This document shows, piece after piece, positions 26,481 to 61,717 of a stretch of DNA of 64,000 bases; the stretch's first letter is position 1; each line of letters begins with the position of its first letter. The notes under the pieces are model-generated. The model did no database searches. It was not told the origin of the DNA and saw only the letters and a program-made list of their open reading frames with translations. A program made the translations under genes and the position numbers. Source of the stretch: Nakamurella aerolata (GTDB lineage Bacteria; Actinomycetota; Actinomycetes; Mycobacteriales; Nakamurellaceae); the NCBI RefSeq assembly GCF_013002705.1, contig NZ_JABEND010000001.1:124001-188000 (forward strand), given 5' to 3'.

Positions 26481-27884
26481 GTGACACTTCCGGTTTCGGT
26501 GGCGGCCGGCCATCCGGCGACGGCCGCTGCCGGGGCCGGAGTGCTGTCCGACGGCGGCACCGCGGCCGACGCGGTTGCGGCGATGATCCTGGCCGGGTGC
26601 GTGGCGGAGACTATCTTCTCCGGGCTGGGCGGCGGCGGGTTCGCCGTGGTGTTCGAGGCGGCCACCGCCCGGGTGCATTGCCTCGACTTCTTTGTCGCGG
26701 TACCGGGTTTGGACGGCAGCCGGCCGGGCGCCGGCCGCGCCATTGCGGTGAGTTTCGGCGGCGTTGCGGTGCCGTACGAGGTTGGCGGGGCGACCGTGGC
26801 GGTGCCGGGCAATCCGAGCGGGGTGGCCGAGTTGAACCGGCGCTTCGGCAGGCTGCCGCTGTCCCGATTGGCGGCTCCCGCGGTGGCGCTGGCCGAGTCT
26901 GGTGCTGTCTTTCCCGCCGAACACGCGGCTTTGCTGTCCGACATTGCGCCGGCGATGCTGCTGGGTGACGGCGTAGCCGCCTACTCCCGGCCCACCGGCG
27001 CGCTGCTGGCCGCCGGCGATCTACTGCATCATCCCGGCCTGGCCGAGACGTTGGAACAGCTGGGGGAGTGCGGCCCAGCTGCCCTGCTGCAGGGGCCGTG
27101 GGGCCGGCGATTGGTCGACGCGGTTCGCGCCGACGGCGGCGCGTTGTCGACCGAAGACCTTGCCGCATACCGGGTCCGGGAACTGCCGCTGGGAAGGGTC
27201 GCGTTCGCGGGGACAACGGTGCAGGCTCGCGGCAACGACCTGGACGGCATGCTCGACACGCTGCGCCGGCTGGATCCTGCCACGTTGACGGCGGGTGATG
27301 CCGCCAGGGCGGTGGCTCTGGCCGAGGCCTTCGCGGCACCGCCCCTGCGCTCGGAAACCACCTCGGTGGCCGCCGTCGACGCCGACGGAAATGCCTGCGC
27401 GGCAACCCATTCGCTCGGCCTCGGCAGCGGGGTCTGGGTGCAGGGGGTGCACGCAAACTCGATGCTCGGCGAGGGTGAGCTGATCCGCGGAGAGTTGGCG
27501 CCTGGGCAGCGAATGGGCTCGATGATGACCCCGACCATCGTCACCCGTCCCGTCGGCGGCGGTCGGCCGGACGAGCTGGTGGCGGCGCTCGGCGCGGCCG
27601 GTGGGTCGCGCATCCGTCCCGCGCTGATTCAGGTGCTGGTGCGGAGTCTGCTGGACGGGGCAGCGCTGTCGGACGCGATCGCCGCTCCGCGGCTGACCGC
27701 CAGCCCCGGTGTGGCGCAGCTGGAACCGGGGTTCGCCCCCGCGGTACCGATGGCGTTGCGGGAGGCGGGGTTTGCGGTGCGGCAGTGGCCGGAGCGGCGG
27801 CCCTACTTCGGCGGCGTGGCCGGGATCGGCGCCGGCGGACCGGCAGCCGATCCGCGGCGCGGCGGTGTCACCATCACGCTGTAG
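26481..27884 (+). CDS. Gamma-glutamyltransferase family protein (Ntn hydrolase)
   Basis: 467 residues; a gamma-glutamyltranspeptidase/glutathione-hydrolase-like fold matured by self-cleavage. The N-terminal part has DGGTAADAVAAMILAGCVAETIFSGLGGGGF. The expected cleavage/nucleophile site is Thr293 in SETTSVAAVDADGNACAATHSLGLGSG. GSMMTPTIV and AAGGSRIRPALIQ follow in the small subunit. It is shorter than typical GGT (about 550) and no signal peptide is seen, so it may be cytosolic, as in some cephalosporin-acylase-like or actinobacterial members. GTG 26481. Divergent from the cysteine hydrolase. Convergent with the DUF4097 gene, the stops being about 19 bases apart. Confidence 0.85.
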   Translation: MTLPVSVAAGHPATAAAGAGVLSDGGTAADAVAAMILAGCVAETIFSGLGGGGFAVVFEAATARVHCLDFFVAVPGLDGSRPGAGRAIAVSFGGVAVPYEVGGATVAVPGNPSGVAELNRRFGRLPLSRLAAPAVALAESGAVFPAEHAALLSDIAPAMLLGDGVAAYSRPTGALLAAGDLLHHPGLAETLEQLGECGPAALLQGPWGRRLVDAVRADGGALSTEDLAAYRVRELPLGRVAFAGTTVQARGNDLDGMLDTLRRLDPATLTAGDAARAVALAEAFAAPPLRSETTSVAAVDADGNACAATHSLGLGSGVWVQGVHANSMLGEGELIRGELAPGQRMGSMMTPTIVTRPVGGGRPDELVAALGAAGGSRIRPALIQVLVRSLLDGAALSDAIAAPRLTASPGVAQLEPGFAPAVPMALREAGFAVRQWPERRPYFGGVAGIGAGGPAADPRRGGVTITL

Positions 27885-27903: not shown

Positions 27904-29061
27904 TCAGACTGCGACGGCCGCGGCGCGCCGCAGCCGGATGTCGCCGGAGGTGGTGCGGCAGGTGATCTCCAGCCGTCCGCCCGGCCCGGCCTGGCGGCCG
28001 GTCGCGTCATCGGAACGGGCCGCGGTGGCACTGTGGGAGCCGGAGCCGGAACCGGCGTCGGAGTCGGAGCCGGAGTCCGAGTTGGCGTCGGGCAACTTGG
28101 TTTCGCCCGCCGCCGCTGGAGTGCCGCCCAGCCGCGCCTTGTCCAGATCGACGGTGAAGTCTGCGGTGCGGTCGGCGAGGCGAGCGGAATCGCCGGGGCC
28201 GCTGGGGTCGTCGGCGGCGCCGCGATCGTCGGTGTCGAACGCGTCGAGATCGGTGGGGTCGTCCACGACGTCGAAATCGTTGATGGTGGAGCCGGTGACC
28301 GTCGACAGGTTGATCCGGGCGAGCGAGCCGCGGTGCACGCCGATCTCGACGTCACCGGAGACCGCGGTGGCCTGCACCGAGCCGTCGACGGCGTCCAGGA
28401 TGCGCACGTCGCCGCTGACCGACCGGACGAACACGTCACCGGAGGGTTCTTCGACACGGACGTTGCCCGAGGTGCTGTGCACGCTGAGGGAACCGGCCAC
28501 CCGTTCAACCACAATGCCGCCGGAGGCGGTACGGACCTCGGCGTCGGCGCCCAGCATCGACAGCCGGATGTCACCGGATGCGGTCTGCACCAGGCTGGCC
28601 CGGCGCACGGTGTCGGCGACCACCTCGCCCGAGGCACTGCGCACGTCGAGCCGGTCGGCCACCCCGGTGATGGTGAGATCGGCCGAGCGGGTCTGGGCGC
28701 GCAGCCCGGAATTGCGCGGCGCGACGATCCGCACCCCGTAGGCCGGGGTGCTGCCCCAGCGCCCGACCGGACCGCCGAACTCGGCCGCGTCCGGTTCGGT
28801 GTCGACGATCAGCACGTTGCCCTGTTCGGTGACCCGCAGGTCGATCCGCACCTCGTCGGTGACGGCGACCGGGGCGGCACCGGTGTCGGCGTCGCTGCGC
28901 CGGAACGCGGCAACCAGGTCGTCCAGCAGCCCGACGCCGCTCGGCAGCCGCAACACCTCGACGGTGCTGGTGGTGACATCGTCGGTGAGGTCGACCGTCA
29001 CGAAGCCGGCGGCGTTGCGCACCTCGATGACGATCGGGTCCGGAGTGAGGAAGTTCTTCAT
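27904..29061 (-). CDS. DUF4097 beta-strand repeat protein
   Basis: 385 residues. The middle (about 130-270) is a string of roughly 19-residue beta repeats with a SASGEV/TASGDI/SVSGDV core, the mark of DUF4097 beta-helix proteins. A Ser/Asp/Gly-rich loop interrupts the final repeat near residues 330-365. No signal peptide or membrane helix is seen, so it is probably cytosolic. ATG 29061 has AAGGGAG 5 bases upstream; the open frame upstream is the repeat leader. It follows the ribbon-helix-helix gene in the same direction. Function of the family is unknown; this pair is seen in other actinomycetes. Confidence 0.8.
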   Translation of the reverse strand: MKNFLTPDPIVIEVRNAAGFVTVDLTDDVTTSTVEVLRLPSGVGLLDDLVAAFRRSDADTGAAPVAVTDEVRIDLRVTEQGNVLIVDTEPDAAEFGGPVGRWGSTPAYGVRIVAPRNSGLRAQTRSADLTITGVADRLDVRSASGEVVADTVRRASLVQTASGDIRLSMLGADAEVRTASGGIVVERVAGSLSVHSTSGNVRVEEPSGDVFVRSVSGDVRILDAVDGSVQATAVSGDVEIGVHRGSLARINLSTVTGSTINDFDVVDDPTDLDAFDTDDRGAADDPSGPGDSARLADRTADFTVDLDKARLGGTPAAAGETKLPDANSDSGSDSDAGSGSGSHSATAARSDDATGRQAGPGGRLEITCRTTSGDIRLRRAAAVAV

Positions 29062-29077: not shown

Positions 29078-29142
29078 GGGTGGGGTTGGGAGGGAGGAAC
29101 AGGGTGGGGTTGGGAGGGAGGAACAGGGTGGGGTTGGGCGGC
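29078..29142. repeat. 24-bp tandem repeat with G-quadruplex pattern in the DUF4097 leader
   Basis: Copies start at 29079, 29103 and 29127 (period 24, two full and one partial). Each contains GGGTGGGGTTGGGAGGG on the plus strand, which satisfies the G3+N1-7 quadruplex pattern. It lies in the gap between the ribbon-helix-helix gene and DUF4097, on the template strand of that operon. Confidence 0.9.
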
Positions 29143-29225: not shown

Positions 29226-29888
29226 TCAGCCCTGGATCCAGCCGCTCACCGTGCCGCCGCTGTTGCCGGAGCCGCGGCGGCGCGGTGACTTGGGCTGCCG
29301 GATGCCCTTGACGGAATCGGAAATGGCCCGAGAGATGTAGGTGTTGAGCGAGACGCCCTGATCCGACGCGGCCGACTCGGCCTGGCTCTTGAGATCGTTG
29401 AACAGCCGCACGGTGGTGCGGGACAGTTCGTTGCCGGCCTCGCGCATGGCCCGCTTCAGATCGTCCGGGTCGCCGTCGGGATCGTCGGCGTCACCGCTGC
29501 CCGAGCCCCGCGGCGACGGCCCAGGGCGCGCCGGGTGGTGCGGGTAGGGGCGCCGACCGTGCGGTCCCCGGCCGCGCCGGCGCGGACCGGTGGCGTCCCA
29601 GGACGCGCTGTCGGTGCCGGCGTCGGCGTCGGTGAGCTCGTCGCGGTCGTGCTGCTCGACCGTGACCCGCAGATCCTGGCCGTCCAGGCGCACCTCGACG
29701 GTGGTGTCGTCCAGCGCTCCGGTGATCTCGCCGGCCAGGTCGGACAGCGCGCTCAGCAGCATCAGCCTGGCGCTGGATTCGATGCTGCCGGCGAGCGCCT
29801 CGGCGGTCCGCCGGGTCTGCTCGTCGCCGAGCGCGGCGGCCCGCACCAGATCGCGGCGGAGTTGGTCCACATACGGCGAAAGGTCCAT
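29226..29888 (-). CDS. Ribbon-helix-helix (HicB-like) DNA-binding protein
   Basis: 220 residues. The C-terminal region (about 165-205) reads as a ribbon-helix-helix: strand TTVRLFNDLKSQAES, then GVSLNTYISRAISDSV. The N-terminal 90 residues are an alpha/beta domain (MDLSPYVDQLRRDLVRAAALGDEQ), and the two are joined by a Gly/Arg/Pro-rich linker with many Asp. Such proteins are often labelled HicB-family antitoxin, but no HicA-type toxin is adjacent; the partner gene is DUF4097. ATG 29888 has no clear ribosome binding site and lies 6 bases after a possible -10 box, so a leaderless mRNA is possible. Six 11-bp repeats lie just upstream, fitting autoregulation. Confidence 0.75.
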   Translation of the reverse strand: MDLSPYVDQLRRDLVRAAALGDEQTRRTAEALAGSIESSARLMLLSALSDLAGEITGALDDTTVEVRLDGQDLRVTVEQHDRDELTDADAGTDSASWDATGPRRRGRGPHGRRPYPHHPARPGPSPRGSGSGDADDPDGDPDDLKRAMREAGNELSRTTVRLFNDLKSQAESAASDQGVSLNTYISRAISDSVKGIRQPKSPRRRGSGNSGGTVSGWIQG

Positions 29889-29894
29889 GACGTC

Positions 29895-29923
29895 ATCCTG
29901 ACACCACAGTTGACGCCAGGCAA
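29895..29923 (-). promoter_or_regulatory. Candidate promoter for ribbon-helix-helix/DUF4097 operon
   Basis: Reading the minus strand, TTGCCT (29923-29918) is followed after 17 bases by CAGGAT (29900-29895). Transcription would begin at or next to the ATG at 29888, giving a leaderless message, which is common in actinomycetes. The match to consensus is only moderate. Confidence 0.35.
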
Positions 29924-29933
29924 GGGGTCTAGT

Positions 29934-29999
29934 GATGTCGAAGTGATGTCGGCATGGCGTCGGAGTGATGTCGGAGCGATGTCGGAGCGATGTCAGCAT
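29934..29999. repeat. Six 11-bp direct repeats, candidate operator array
   Basis: Units begin at 29934, 29945, 29956, 29967, 29978 and 29989, exactly 11 bases apart, with consensus GATGTCGGAGY. Units 4 and 5 are identical; unit 3 begins GGCGTCGG and units 1, 2 and 6 vary at the end. The array lies between the divergent ribbon-helix-helix gene and thyX, touching the proposed promoter of the former. The period is about one DNA turn. Confidence 0.9.
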
Positions 30000-30092
30000 G
30001 ACCGCAAGCTGGTGGCAGGTGTGGCCATCTGTGCGGCGCTGGCCAGGTGGCCGGTGCAGGGTGTCAGCGATCCCGGACGCCATACTGCTGGG

Positions 30093-30848
30093 ATGACCGC
30101 AGGCCAGATCCCGCCGGAGTCGGCCGCCGGCCCGGGCGCCGTGCAGCTCATCGGGCACACCGTGTTCACTCCGCCGGCCGGCATCGACTTCGACACCGAC
30201 GCCGACGCCGGGCAGGCACTTGTCGAGTTCGCGGGACGGGCGATCTACCGCTCGTGGGACAAGCCGATCCCAGCCACCGCCAGCAATGCCGGGTTCCTGC
30301 GTCATCTGATCGAGGTCGGGCACCTTTCGGTGCTGGAACATGCCAGTGCCACCTTTCTGCTGCAGGGCATACCCCGTTCGGTGAGCCATGAGCTGTTGCG
30401 GCACCGGCACTTCTCGTTCTCGGAGCTGTCGCCACGGCAGCCGGTGTCCGGGGCGGCCCTGCCGGCAGCGCTGCGCGCGGATCCGGAACTTGCCGAGCTG
30501 GCGGATACGGCGGTGCGACGCTCCGAGGATTCCTATCGCGAGGTGCTGAAAGCCCTGGAGGCCAAGGCATCCGGCGCCGTTCAGCACAAGCAGGCAAGGC
30601 AGGCGGCCAGGGCGTTGCTGCCGATGAGCCAGCCCACCGACCTGGTGATGACCGGGAACCTGCGCTCCTGGCGGCATTTCGTCGGCATGCGCGCCACCGA
30701 CCCGGCCGACGTGGAGCTGCGCGAGTTGGCCGTCGAGGTACTGCGGCAGCTACAGGCCTTGGCGCCGAACGTCTTTGCCGATTTCCGGATCAGCGAACTG
30801 GCCGACGGCAGCATGCTCGCCGCCTCGCCGCACGTCCGCGACGCCTGA
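30093..30848 (+). CDS. thyX: Flavin-dependent thymidylate synthase
   Basis: Makes dTMP from dUMP using methylene-tetrahydrofolate, NADPH and FAD. The ThyX motif RHRX7S is present (R103-H104-R105 ... S113, in LLRHRHFSFSELSPRQ). Further conserved parts: FLRHLIEVGHLSVLEHASATF and NLRSWRHFVGMRATDPADVELRELA. ATG 30093 is chosen because the homologous sequence starts just after; the frame is open far upstream but that part is antisense to another gene. Located between dapB and dapA, the usual actinobacterial arrangement. 251 residues, complete. Confidence 0.95.
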   Translation: MTAGQIPPESAAGPGAVQLIGHTVFTPPAGIDFDTDADAGQALVEFAGRAIYRSWDKPIPATASNAGFLRHLIEVGHLSVLEHASATFLLQGIPRSVSHELLRHRHFSFSELSPRQPVSGAALPAALRADPELAELADTAVRRSEDSYREVLKALEAKASGAVQHKQARQAARALLPMSQPTDLVMTGNLRSWRHFVGMRATDPADVELRELAVEVLRQLQALAPNVFADFRISELADGSMLAASPHVRDA

Positions 30849-59839: not shown

Positions 59840-61717
59840 TCAGCTCAGCGCTCTGGCCAGCGCGTCCAGACCGGCGGTCCGGTCTTTCAGGTGCAGCGTC
59901 ACCACCGGGCGGCCGTGCTCGGCGAGCACGCTCCCGTCACCGCGGGCCTGGGCTTGTTGCAGCTCACCGAAGGTGAACGGCTGCTCAGGGATCGGCAGAT
60001 CTTCGGCGCTGTCGCCGGTGATCTGCACGAACACCCCGTTGGGGTGCCCACCCTTGTGGTACTGGCCCGTCGAGTGCAGAAACCGCGGACCCCAGCCGAA
60101 CGTGGTCTGCAGCCCGGACTTTGCCGCCAACAGCGGACGTAGCGGAGCCGCGTCGTCGGTCAGCCGGTCCAGATAGGCCTGGATCGCCAGGTATCCGGCC
60201 GCCGGCGCCGCCTTCACCACGTTGTCCAGCAGCGTGGCGAGATCGGTGGCGCCGTCGACGATCTCGGGCGACCCGGAGACCGTGATGCCGTCCAGCTCGA
60301 CGGTCGCGGCGGCACCGGGCTTCGACTGCTCGTCGTCACCGTCGGAGTTGCCGCTGCCCTTGGAGCTGTCGCCACCGTCGTTGTTGGTGTCCGCCAACAA
60401 CTTCCGGGTGGCCGCTTTCGCCGATTCCACGTCGGGCTGATCGAACGGGTTGATGCCGAGTTCGCGCCCGGCCACCGCGATCACGTACTCCCAAGTCAGC
60501 ATCTGCGCGCCCAGCGGCCCGGAGATGGCGAACGCGAAGCCGGACGCCGGCACCACGCCGGCATCGGTGCCGATGCTGGCCAGAACGGCGTCCTTGCCGG
60601 CGTCCGCGAAGCCGGGCGCCTTCGGCGACTCGACCACTACCGGCAGAATGCCGGTGCCCTGTTTGCCGGTGGACTCGGCGATCAACTGTTCCGCCCAATC
60701 GCCGAAACCCTTGATGCCGCTACCGGTATCGGCGATGACGACCTTCTCGGCCCCGGCCCGTTGCGCAAGCCCGAGCAGGGCGCCGAGCACCAGGGCCGGA
60801 TTGCCGGCATCATCGGCGGCCAGCCCCGGCGCGGCCGCTGCCGCCTCGTCGAGCAGCGCCCCGATGTCCACCCCGGCCAGTCCGGCCGGCACCAACCCGA
60901 ACGCGGTGAGCGCCGAATAGCGGCCGCCGACGTTCGGATCGGCGAGGAAAACCTTGCGGTAGCCCTCGGTTTCGGCGAGCTTGGCCAGCGGTGAGCCGGG
61001 GTCGGTCACCACCACGATGTGTTTGGCGGGGTCAAGTCCCTCGTCCCGGAAAGCCTTGGCATAGGCCCGCCGGTGCGAATCGGTCTCCACCGTGCCGCCG
61101 GATTTGGACGAGACCACCAGCACCGTGCGATCAAGCTGGTCGCCCAGTGCGGCCCTGATCTGCCCGGGATCGGTGGTGTCCAGGGTGACGAGCGGTTTGC
61201 CCGCGGTCGCGCAGATCACCTCTGGCGCCAACGACGACCCGCCCATGCCGGCCAGCACCACATGGGTGAGACCGTCCTTGGCGAGCAGCCCACGCAGCTC
61301 GACGATCTCGTTCACCAGCGGCCGGGACGATTCCGCCAGGCCGACCCAACTGAGCCGGATCGAGGCCTCTGACTCGGCATCGGGACCCCACAGCGTCGGA
61401 TCCTGCGCGGTCAGCTTGCTGGCGACCTTGTCGTCCACCAGCTGCTGAACCTCGGCGGCCAGCGCATCCCGGTCGGGAACCGTTGTGCTCACGGTGATAT
61501 CGCCGGGCGCGCTGAACGTACTGCCCTGTCGGCTCTGTGCCTGTTGGTTCGCCTCCGCGCTCGCTGCGGGCCGGTTGGACGCTCCTGCGTCGCGTCCGCC
61601 CGTTGCCTCCGCTCCCTGTCGGCTCTGTGCCTGTTGGTTCGCCTCCGCGCTCGCTGCGGGCCGGTTGGACGCTCCGGCGTCGCGGCCGCCCGTTGCCTCC
61701 GCTCCCTGTCGGCTCAC
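59840..61717 (-). CDS. pgi: Glucose-6-phosphate isomerase
   Basis: Interconverts glucose-6-phosphate and fructose-6-phosphate. Motifs: [24 protein letters not shown] (203-213), [15 protein letters not shown] 61717 overlaps the tal stop; that coupling implies translation of an odd N terminus in which a 30-residue unit ([20 protein letters not shown] plus [10 protein letters not shown]) occurs twice with the start of a third. An internal GTG at 61492 would give a normal-looking start but lacks a ribosome binding site. A Gly/Asp/Ser/Lys insert ([20 protein letters not shown]) near residues 440-465 is also extra. Confidence 0.92.
61524..61712. repeat. 90-bp tandem duplication inside pgi
   Basis: Copies start at 61524 and 61614, with a partial third from 61704. 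The two full copies differ at only a few positions, so the duplication is recent or kept by recombination. In frame with pgi. Confidence 0.9.

Follow-up and report, generated by a model that had tools for sequence, protein, structure and literature searches.

The intergenic region between a ribbon-helix-helix (RHH) regulator gene and thyX in Nakamurella aerolata holds nine boxes related to the palindrome TGACGTCA. We read these boxes, at a probability of about 0.85, as an autoregulatory operator on which the RHH protein would bind cooperatively in the manner of Arc, thereby repressing a leaderless RHH–DUF4097 operon. Six repeats of 11 bp that had been pointed out in an earlier note on this DNA are only the outer part of the nine-box operator. 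Its conserved part is a set of three proximal boxes, which lie against the ATG of the RHH gene in most of the actinobacterial homologues examined.

The genes concerned are arranged as follows in the window, by which we mean the whole stretch of 64,000 nucleotides that was analyzed:

29226 to 29888, minus strand: RHH regulator P0002, 220 aa, with its ATG at 29888

27904 to 29061, minus strand: DUF4097 (Toastrack) protein P0001, 385 aa, second gene of the operon

30093 to 30848, plus strand: thyX, the divergent neighbor, named from its sequence and from the naming in the earlier note, not by family search

Since the gene that follows DUF4097 (26481–27884) is convergent, the operon comprises two genes, RHH and DUF4097; ABC ATPase and permease genes are absent from the operon of N. 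aerolata. P0002 begins with a conserved N-terminal domain of ~80 residues, which a variable linker joins to a HicB-type RHH domain at residues ~155–195, and it ends in a conserved tail. The protein scores above the cutoff for the Pfam family HicB, 29 of 30 homologues match this family too, and a comparison of the RHH profile with solved structures returned weak matches, the best of which include VapB26, antitoxins of the DUF1778/KacA type, and Arc. The predicted structure of the RHH protein is of low confidence, with a mean pLDDT of 61, and a Foldseek search with this model gave no significant match. The short conserved C-terminal tail (residues 214–220), which follows a variable region, reads SGWIQG here, with forms such as TGWVR among homologues; it is a candidate docking motif for DUF4097. 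Between the RHH stop codon and the DUF4097 start lies a perfect 24-bp tandem repeat of 2.5 copies (GGGTGGGGTTGGGAGGGAGGAACA, 29078–29138), and a 90-bp tandem duplication of 98% identity is found at 61524–61715 of the window. The thyX gene is also leaderless-looking, with CATACT as its −10 element at 30081–30086, followed by six bases and then the ATG.

Each of the six 11-bp units holds a box of the form YGRYRYCR when read on the minus strand. Together with the proximal boxes and the putative promoter elements, they are laid out as follows, with negative positions counted from the RHH ATG:

29933 to 29995, minus strand: distal array of six 11-bp-phased boxes, TGACATCG, CGACATCG, CGACATCA, CGACGCCA, CGACATCA and CGACATCA, at 29995–29988, 29984–29977, 29973–29966, 29962–29955, 29951–29944 and 29940–29933 (−107, −96, −85, −74, −63 and −52)

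29918 to 29923, minus strand: putative −35 element TTGCCT; its TTG is conserved here in relatives, and the slot is never occupied by a box

29911 to 29918, minus strand: proximal box 1, TGGCGTCA (−30), in the promoter spacer directly after the −35 element

29899 to 29906, minus strand: proximal box 2, TGGTGTCA (−18), whose CA opens the −10 hexamer

29895 to 29900, minus strand: putative −10 element CAGGAT, with the family consensus CAnnnT

29888 to 29895, minus strand: proximal box 3, TGACGTCA (−7), which ends with the A of the RHH ATG

The six units and their exact 11-bp spacing are present as described in the earlier note. At a lag of 11, the best run begins at 29931, with identity at 43 of 53 positions. 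In 5000 dinucleotide shuffles of the whole intergenic region, the maximum over lags of 5 to 30 was 34, which rules out a chance or low-complexity repeat. The array had also been said to touch the promoter, but its near edge lies ~10 bp upstream of the −35 element, and the overlap is made by the three proximal boxes, which had been missed. The proposal that the repeats belong to the operator of the operon is supported, but it is the three missed boxes that make up the conserved operator. The phase continues from one group to the other: the distance from the box at 29940 to that at 29918 is exactly 22 bp, leaving a lone empty slot at 29929 beside the −35 element. The spacers between the distal units are alike (CGACATCxCTC), and the match to the palindrome is poorer in the distal boxes than in box 3.

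The relatives, when aligned on their ATG, have in common a TTG at −35 and, separated from it by 17 bp, CAnnnT (−12 to −7). This signature fits a sigma-70-type promoter with a transcript that probably starts at or beside the ATG, which makes the leaderless start suggested in the earlier note a probable one. The CA and T of the −10 element double as box bases, so that the leaderless assignment depends mainly on the position of the −35 TTG. A generic sigma-70 scan of the window found no promoter. The proximal boxes occupy the spacer, lie on either side of the −10 element and extend into it, and run up to the start codon.

The RHH protein was matched in all 16 other Nakamurella genomes searched and in 46 of 61 genomes overall. 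When 396 genomes from the phylum were searched with a profile, 66 gave a match, in some cases via the RHH domain alone. A plasmid search with the homologue L029 yielded 43 records; the same kind of search with the RHH protein of the window yielded no match. Among 53 homologue upstream regions from across the phylum, boxes are found near −7 in 39, near −18 in 48 and near −29/−30 in 46, and a box near −51 is present in 32. None of the 53 regions has a box between −45 and −36, the slot of the −35 element. Two or more of the three core boxes are present at 49 of the 53 loci, compared with 0.09 expected from shuffled sequence. The total of 241 boxes (21 expected) was counted with a regular expression framed after viewing the first 30 homologues, and only loci L035 onward and the plasmid copies, where the layout is alike, are independent of the choice of pattern. 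Neighboring boxes are spaced by 11 (70 cases), 12 (20 cases) or 21–22 bp (38 cases), and the distal boxes at loci other than the window show a period of 11.0 bp (Rayleigh p about 7e-11). The most distant homologues, L060 and L061, have no boxes at their starts, the positions of which are uncertain.

These results bear on several points of the earlier note. Homologous gene pairs without phased repeats had been named there as evidence that would speak against its reading; phased boxes were found upstream of almost all homologues, and autoregulation, which the note had proposed, is the likely function. A search for the repeat before other copies of the gene pair had also been suggested; phased boxes do recur there, but the six-unit tandem array is found only in N. 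aerolata among the Nakamurella examined.

In P0002, the β-strand of the RHH domain reads R157-x-T159-x-R161, and these three residues occupy what we take to be the positions at which Arc has its DNA-reading residues. Residue 159 covaries with the box: Thr or Ser is accompanied by TGACGTCA-type boxes and Asn by TGGYGCCA-type boxes. Homologues with Thr have A at box position 3 in 85 and T at position 6 in 104 of 136 boxes, and those with Ser have the same bases in 8 and 7 of 8 boxes, respectively; for homologues with Asn, G is found at position 3 in 44 and C at position 6 in 37 of 52 boxes. A Mann–Whitney test of box positions 3 and 6 against residue 159, in which kinship is ignored, gave a p of 1e-7. 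In a tree calculated with residue 159 masked, the Asn type falls largely into one clade, and in no bootstrap tree does Asn form a single group. Members with Thr or Ser that lie inside or beside the Asn clade (L043, L104, L105, L108 and L023) have boxes mostly of the TGA type; the nesting of some of these Thr/Ser switches has moderate support, and the covariation rests on few independent changes. Residue 159 and box also differ together between the Embleya plasmids L108 and L110. Moreover, of two paralogues in a single Nakamurella genome (L018, L068), the one with Thr has TGACGTCA/TGGTGTCA boxes and the one with Asn has TGGTGCCA boxes. Exceptions are L109 and L046, which have Asn and boxes partly of the TGA type, and several Thr members that mix TGR types. 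Together these observations make a strong circumstantial case for the RHH protein as the reader of the boxes, and the covariation supports a role of the β-strand residues in this.

Searching the genome of N. aerolata with the paired motif TGRYGTCA-N3-TGRYGTCA (11-bp spacing, one mismatch allowed) revealed the RHH promoter as the only site, and a wide regulon was not found with this motif. A looser TGRYGYCA pair gave one further site, where a FitA-like RHH antitoxin gene starts. In 17 Nakamurella genomes, most box pairs sit exactly at the RHH start. FitA/VapB-like RHH antitoxin genes of Nakamurella (L071, L072, L073 and L075, of which L073 is from N. aerolata itself, C22 near 110567) start directly after TGGCGCCA-N3-TGGCGCCA, and a box pair abutting the ATG is possibly a general design of RHH autoregulation in actinobacteria. 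On contig 55 of G003 (L101; also L070), three phased TGACGTCA boxes and TGACATCA lie upstream of position 1585, before a DrrA-type ABC ATPase/permease, which suggests that in this species the transporter is a trans target of the RHH protein. A PspC-domain gene on contig 238 of G008 (L076) has TGGTGTCAACGTGACGTCA 35 bp upstream; the box pair is absent at the other PspC loci searched in Nakamurella, and this link is probably due to chance.

From the sequence features described above, we infer binding, repression and leaderless transcription. RHH dimers would take TGACGTCA-like boxes 11 bp, or one helical turn, apart and would line up next to each other along the same DNA face. Once occupied, the three proximal boxes would cover the promoter from the spacer through the −10 element to the leaderless start codon and block RNA polymerase; in this way the RHH protein very probably represses its own gene. 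The six distal boxes past the −35 element, which seem to have arisen by tandem expansion of a single 11-bp unit, would provide extra cooperative sites and hence a longer chain. The triad R157-x-T159-x-R161 would read the box, with residue 159 setting the preference for the TGACGTCA type (Thr/Ser) or the TGGYGCCA type (Asn). DUF4097, encoded on the same mRNA, might act as a scaffold or co-regulator that alters repression upon an envelope-related signal, although both this role and the signal are speculative. To place it as a co-regulatory scaffold near the membrane is a guess that follows the Toastrack proposal of PMC11237479.

As a simple palindrome, TGACGTCA could be read by other proteins, and RHH binding here is predicted; a different and perhaps global regulator might therefore bind the boxes, with the RHH protein merely its target. 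We consider this improbable, however, because the box pair is found in its own genome only at the RHH gene and, in its looser form, at another RHH gene, and because the box type tracks the RHH β-strand residue, even between two paralogues within one genome. The pair could also be viewed as a type II toxin-antitoxin system whose antitoxin has an ordinary operator, given that RHH homologues are annotated as HicB-family antitoxins and that the FitA/VapB-like antitoxin genes of Nakamurella bear a very similar, leaderless-looking box pair. Yet the partner is a DUF4097/Toastrack protein for which the family search gave no toxin match of weight, ABC transporter genes join the operon in many relatives, and the RHH protein has an additional conserved N-terminal domain. 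A toxin-antitoxin system is thus highly improbable, and the statement in the earlier note that the DUF4097 partner is not a toxin agrees with the lack of a toxin family match.

Two further readings concern the distal array. It lies between the RHH and thyX starts, and thyX is divergent within ~450 bp in the window as well as at 13 other loci from several families, the linkage being kept in part of the order. As a dual operator with control over thyX too, the array would couple thymidylate synthesis to the RHH–DUF4097 module, and the earlier note had considered that thyX expression could be affected. Nevertheless, the boxes keep set positions with respect to the RHH start, they are just as frequent at loci without thyX, and the number of distal boxes is independent of thyX adjacency; in the window, the nearest box is ~100 bp from the thyX ATG and upstream of the likely thyX promoter. 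We thus found no support for an effect on thyX, and dual control has little probability. It is conceivable, if doubtful, that the three-box operator is functional and the six-unit array a neutral expansion by replication slippage. The similar distal spacers are what a recent tandem duplication would give, six boxes in a row are found only in this Nakamurella, and the distal boxes are less palindromic than box 3. On the other hand, phased distal boxes are carried by many relatives and one Streptomyces-like locus has ten boxes, so that distal phasing seems to be selected somewhere.

Taken as an autoregulatory operator of the RHH protein, the boxes would supply a defined candidate site and a predicted specificity residue for a gene pair that many actinobacteria carry, Streptomyces among them. 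There it is often labeled a HicB antitoxin, though a toxin is absent. The natural one-residue switch, with both kinds of paralogue in one genome, makes RHH specificity directly testable, and the conserved embedding of three boxes in a probable leaderless promoter gives a pattern to look for elsewhere. The earlier note had spoken of an uncharacterized autoregulated module; autoregulation is likely, but the pairing of RHH with Toastrack (DUF4097) was already reported for Actinobacteria from comparative genomics (PMC11237479). Only tentatively, and with more doubt than conviction, might one extend the scheme to a phylum-wide module in which an RHH chain on 3 to 10 phased boxes covers a leaderless start, a single β-strand residue switches specificity between TGACGTCA and TGGYGCCA, and a DUF4097 scaffold releases or tightens the chain upon envelope stress or exposure to antibiotics and so drives efflux of the DrrAB type in many lineages. 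In literature searches on DUF4097 combined with HicB, Streptomyces or the box sequence, no description of the operator or of the specificity switch was found.

Arc places RHH dimers on neighboring half-sites about one turn apart. The Arc operator of phage P22 shares with the present one the arrangement of neighboring RHH sites at one turn, and Arc is among the best structure matches of the RHH profile. Binding by Arc is cooperative (PMC2812701). Arc has two half-sites, whereas here three conserved boxes and up to seven more are fused to a leaderless start, and the RHH protein of N. aerolata differs from Arc by its extra N-terminal domain and its DUF4097 partner. The relO operator of Escherichia coli RelBE comprises four hexads, arranged as a pair of neighboring 12-bp half-sites that share a DNA face, and the co-encoded partner serves as a co-repressor (PMC2812701). 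The parallel is an RHH repressor with a co-encoded partner on adjacent palindromic half-sites; unlike in relO, the partner here is not a toxin, the boxes are 3–4 bp apart, and the chain runs upstream of the −35 element. The operators of the FitA/VapB-like genes (L072, L073) similarly have TGGCGCCA-N3-TGGCGCCA abutting the ATG of an RHH gene, but they have two or three boxes only and belong to the FitA-like RHH family, with a VapC-like gene, recognized by eye, downstream in L072.

From comparative genomics, Ravi and colleagues described an RHH-Toastrack-ABC operon in Actinobacteria (PMC11237479), in which the RHH gene is followed by the DUF4097 gene as in the window; the passages of that paper on this operon do not describe an operator. 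Genes for an ABC ATPase and a permease extend the operon in Streptomyces, in Tsukamurella and for one Nakamurella paralogue. The LltR operon of Listeria encodes a PadR repressor, DUF1700 and DUF4097 and is autoregulated, and in an lltR* mutant the operon is up over 100-fold and LiaI/LiaH are up modestly (PMC6624303). Its repressor is of an unrelated family and a membrane DUF1700 protein is encoded in between, but, as the operon of N. aerolata would on our reading, it combines an autoregulated repressor with a co-transcribed DUF4097 protein.
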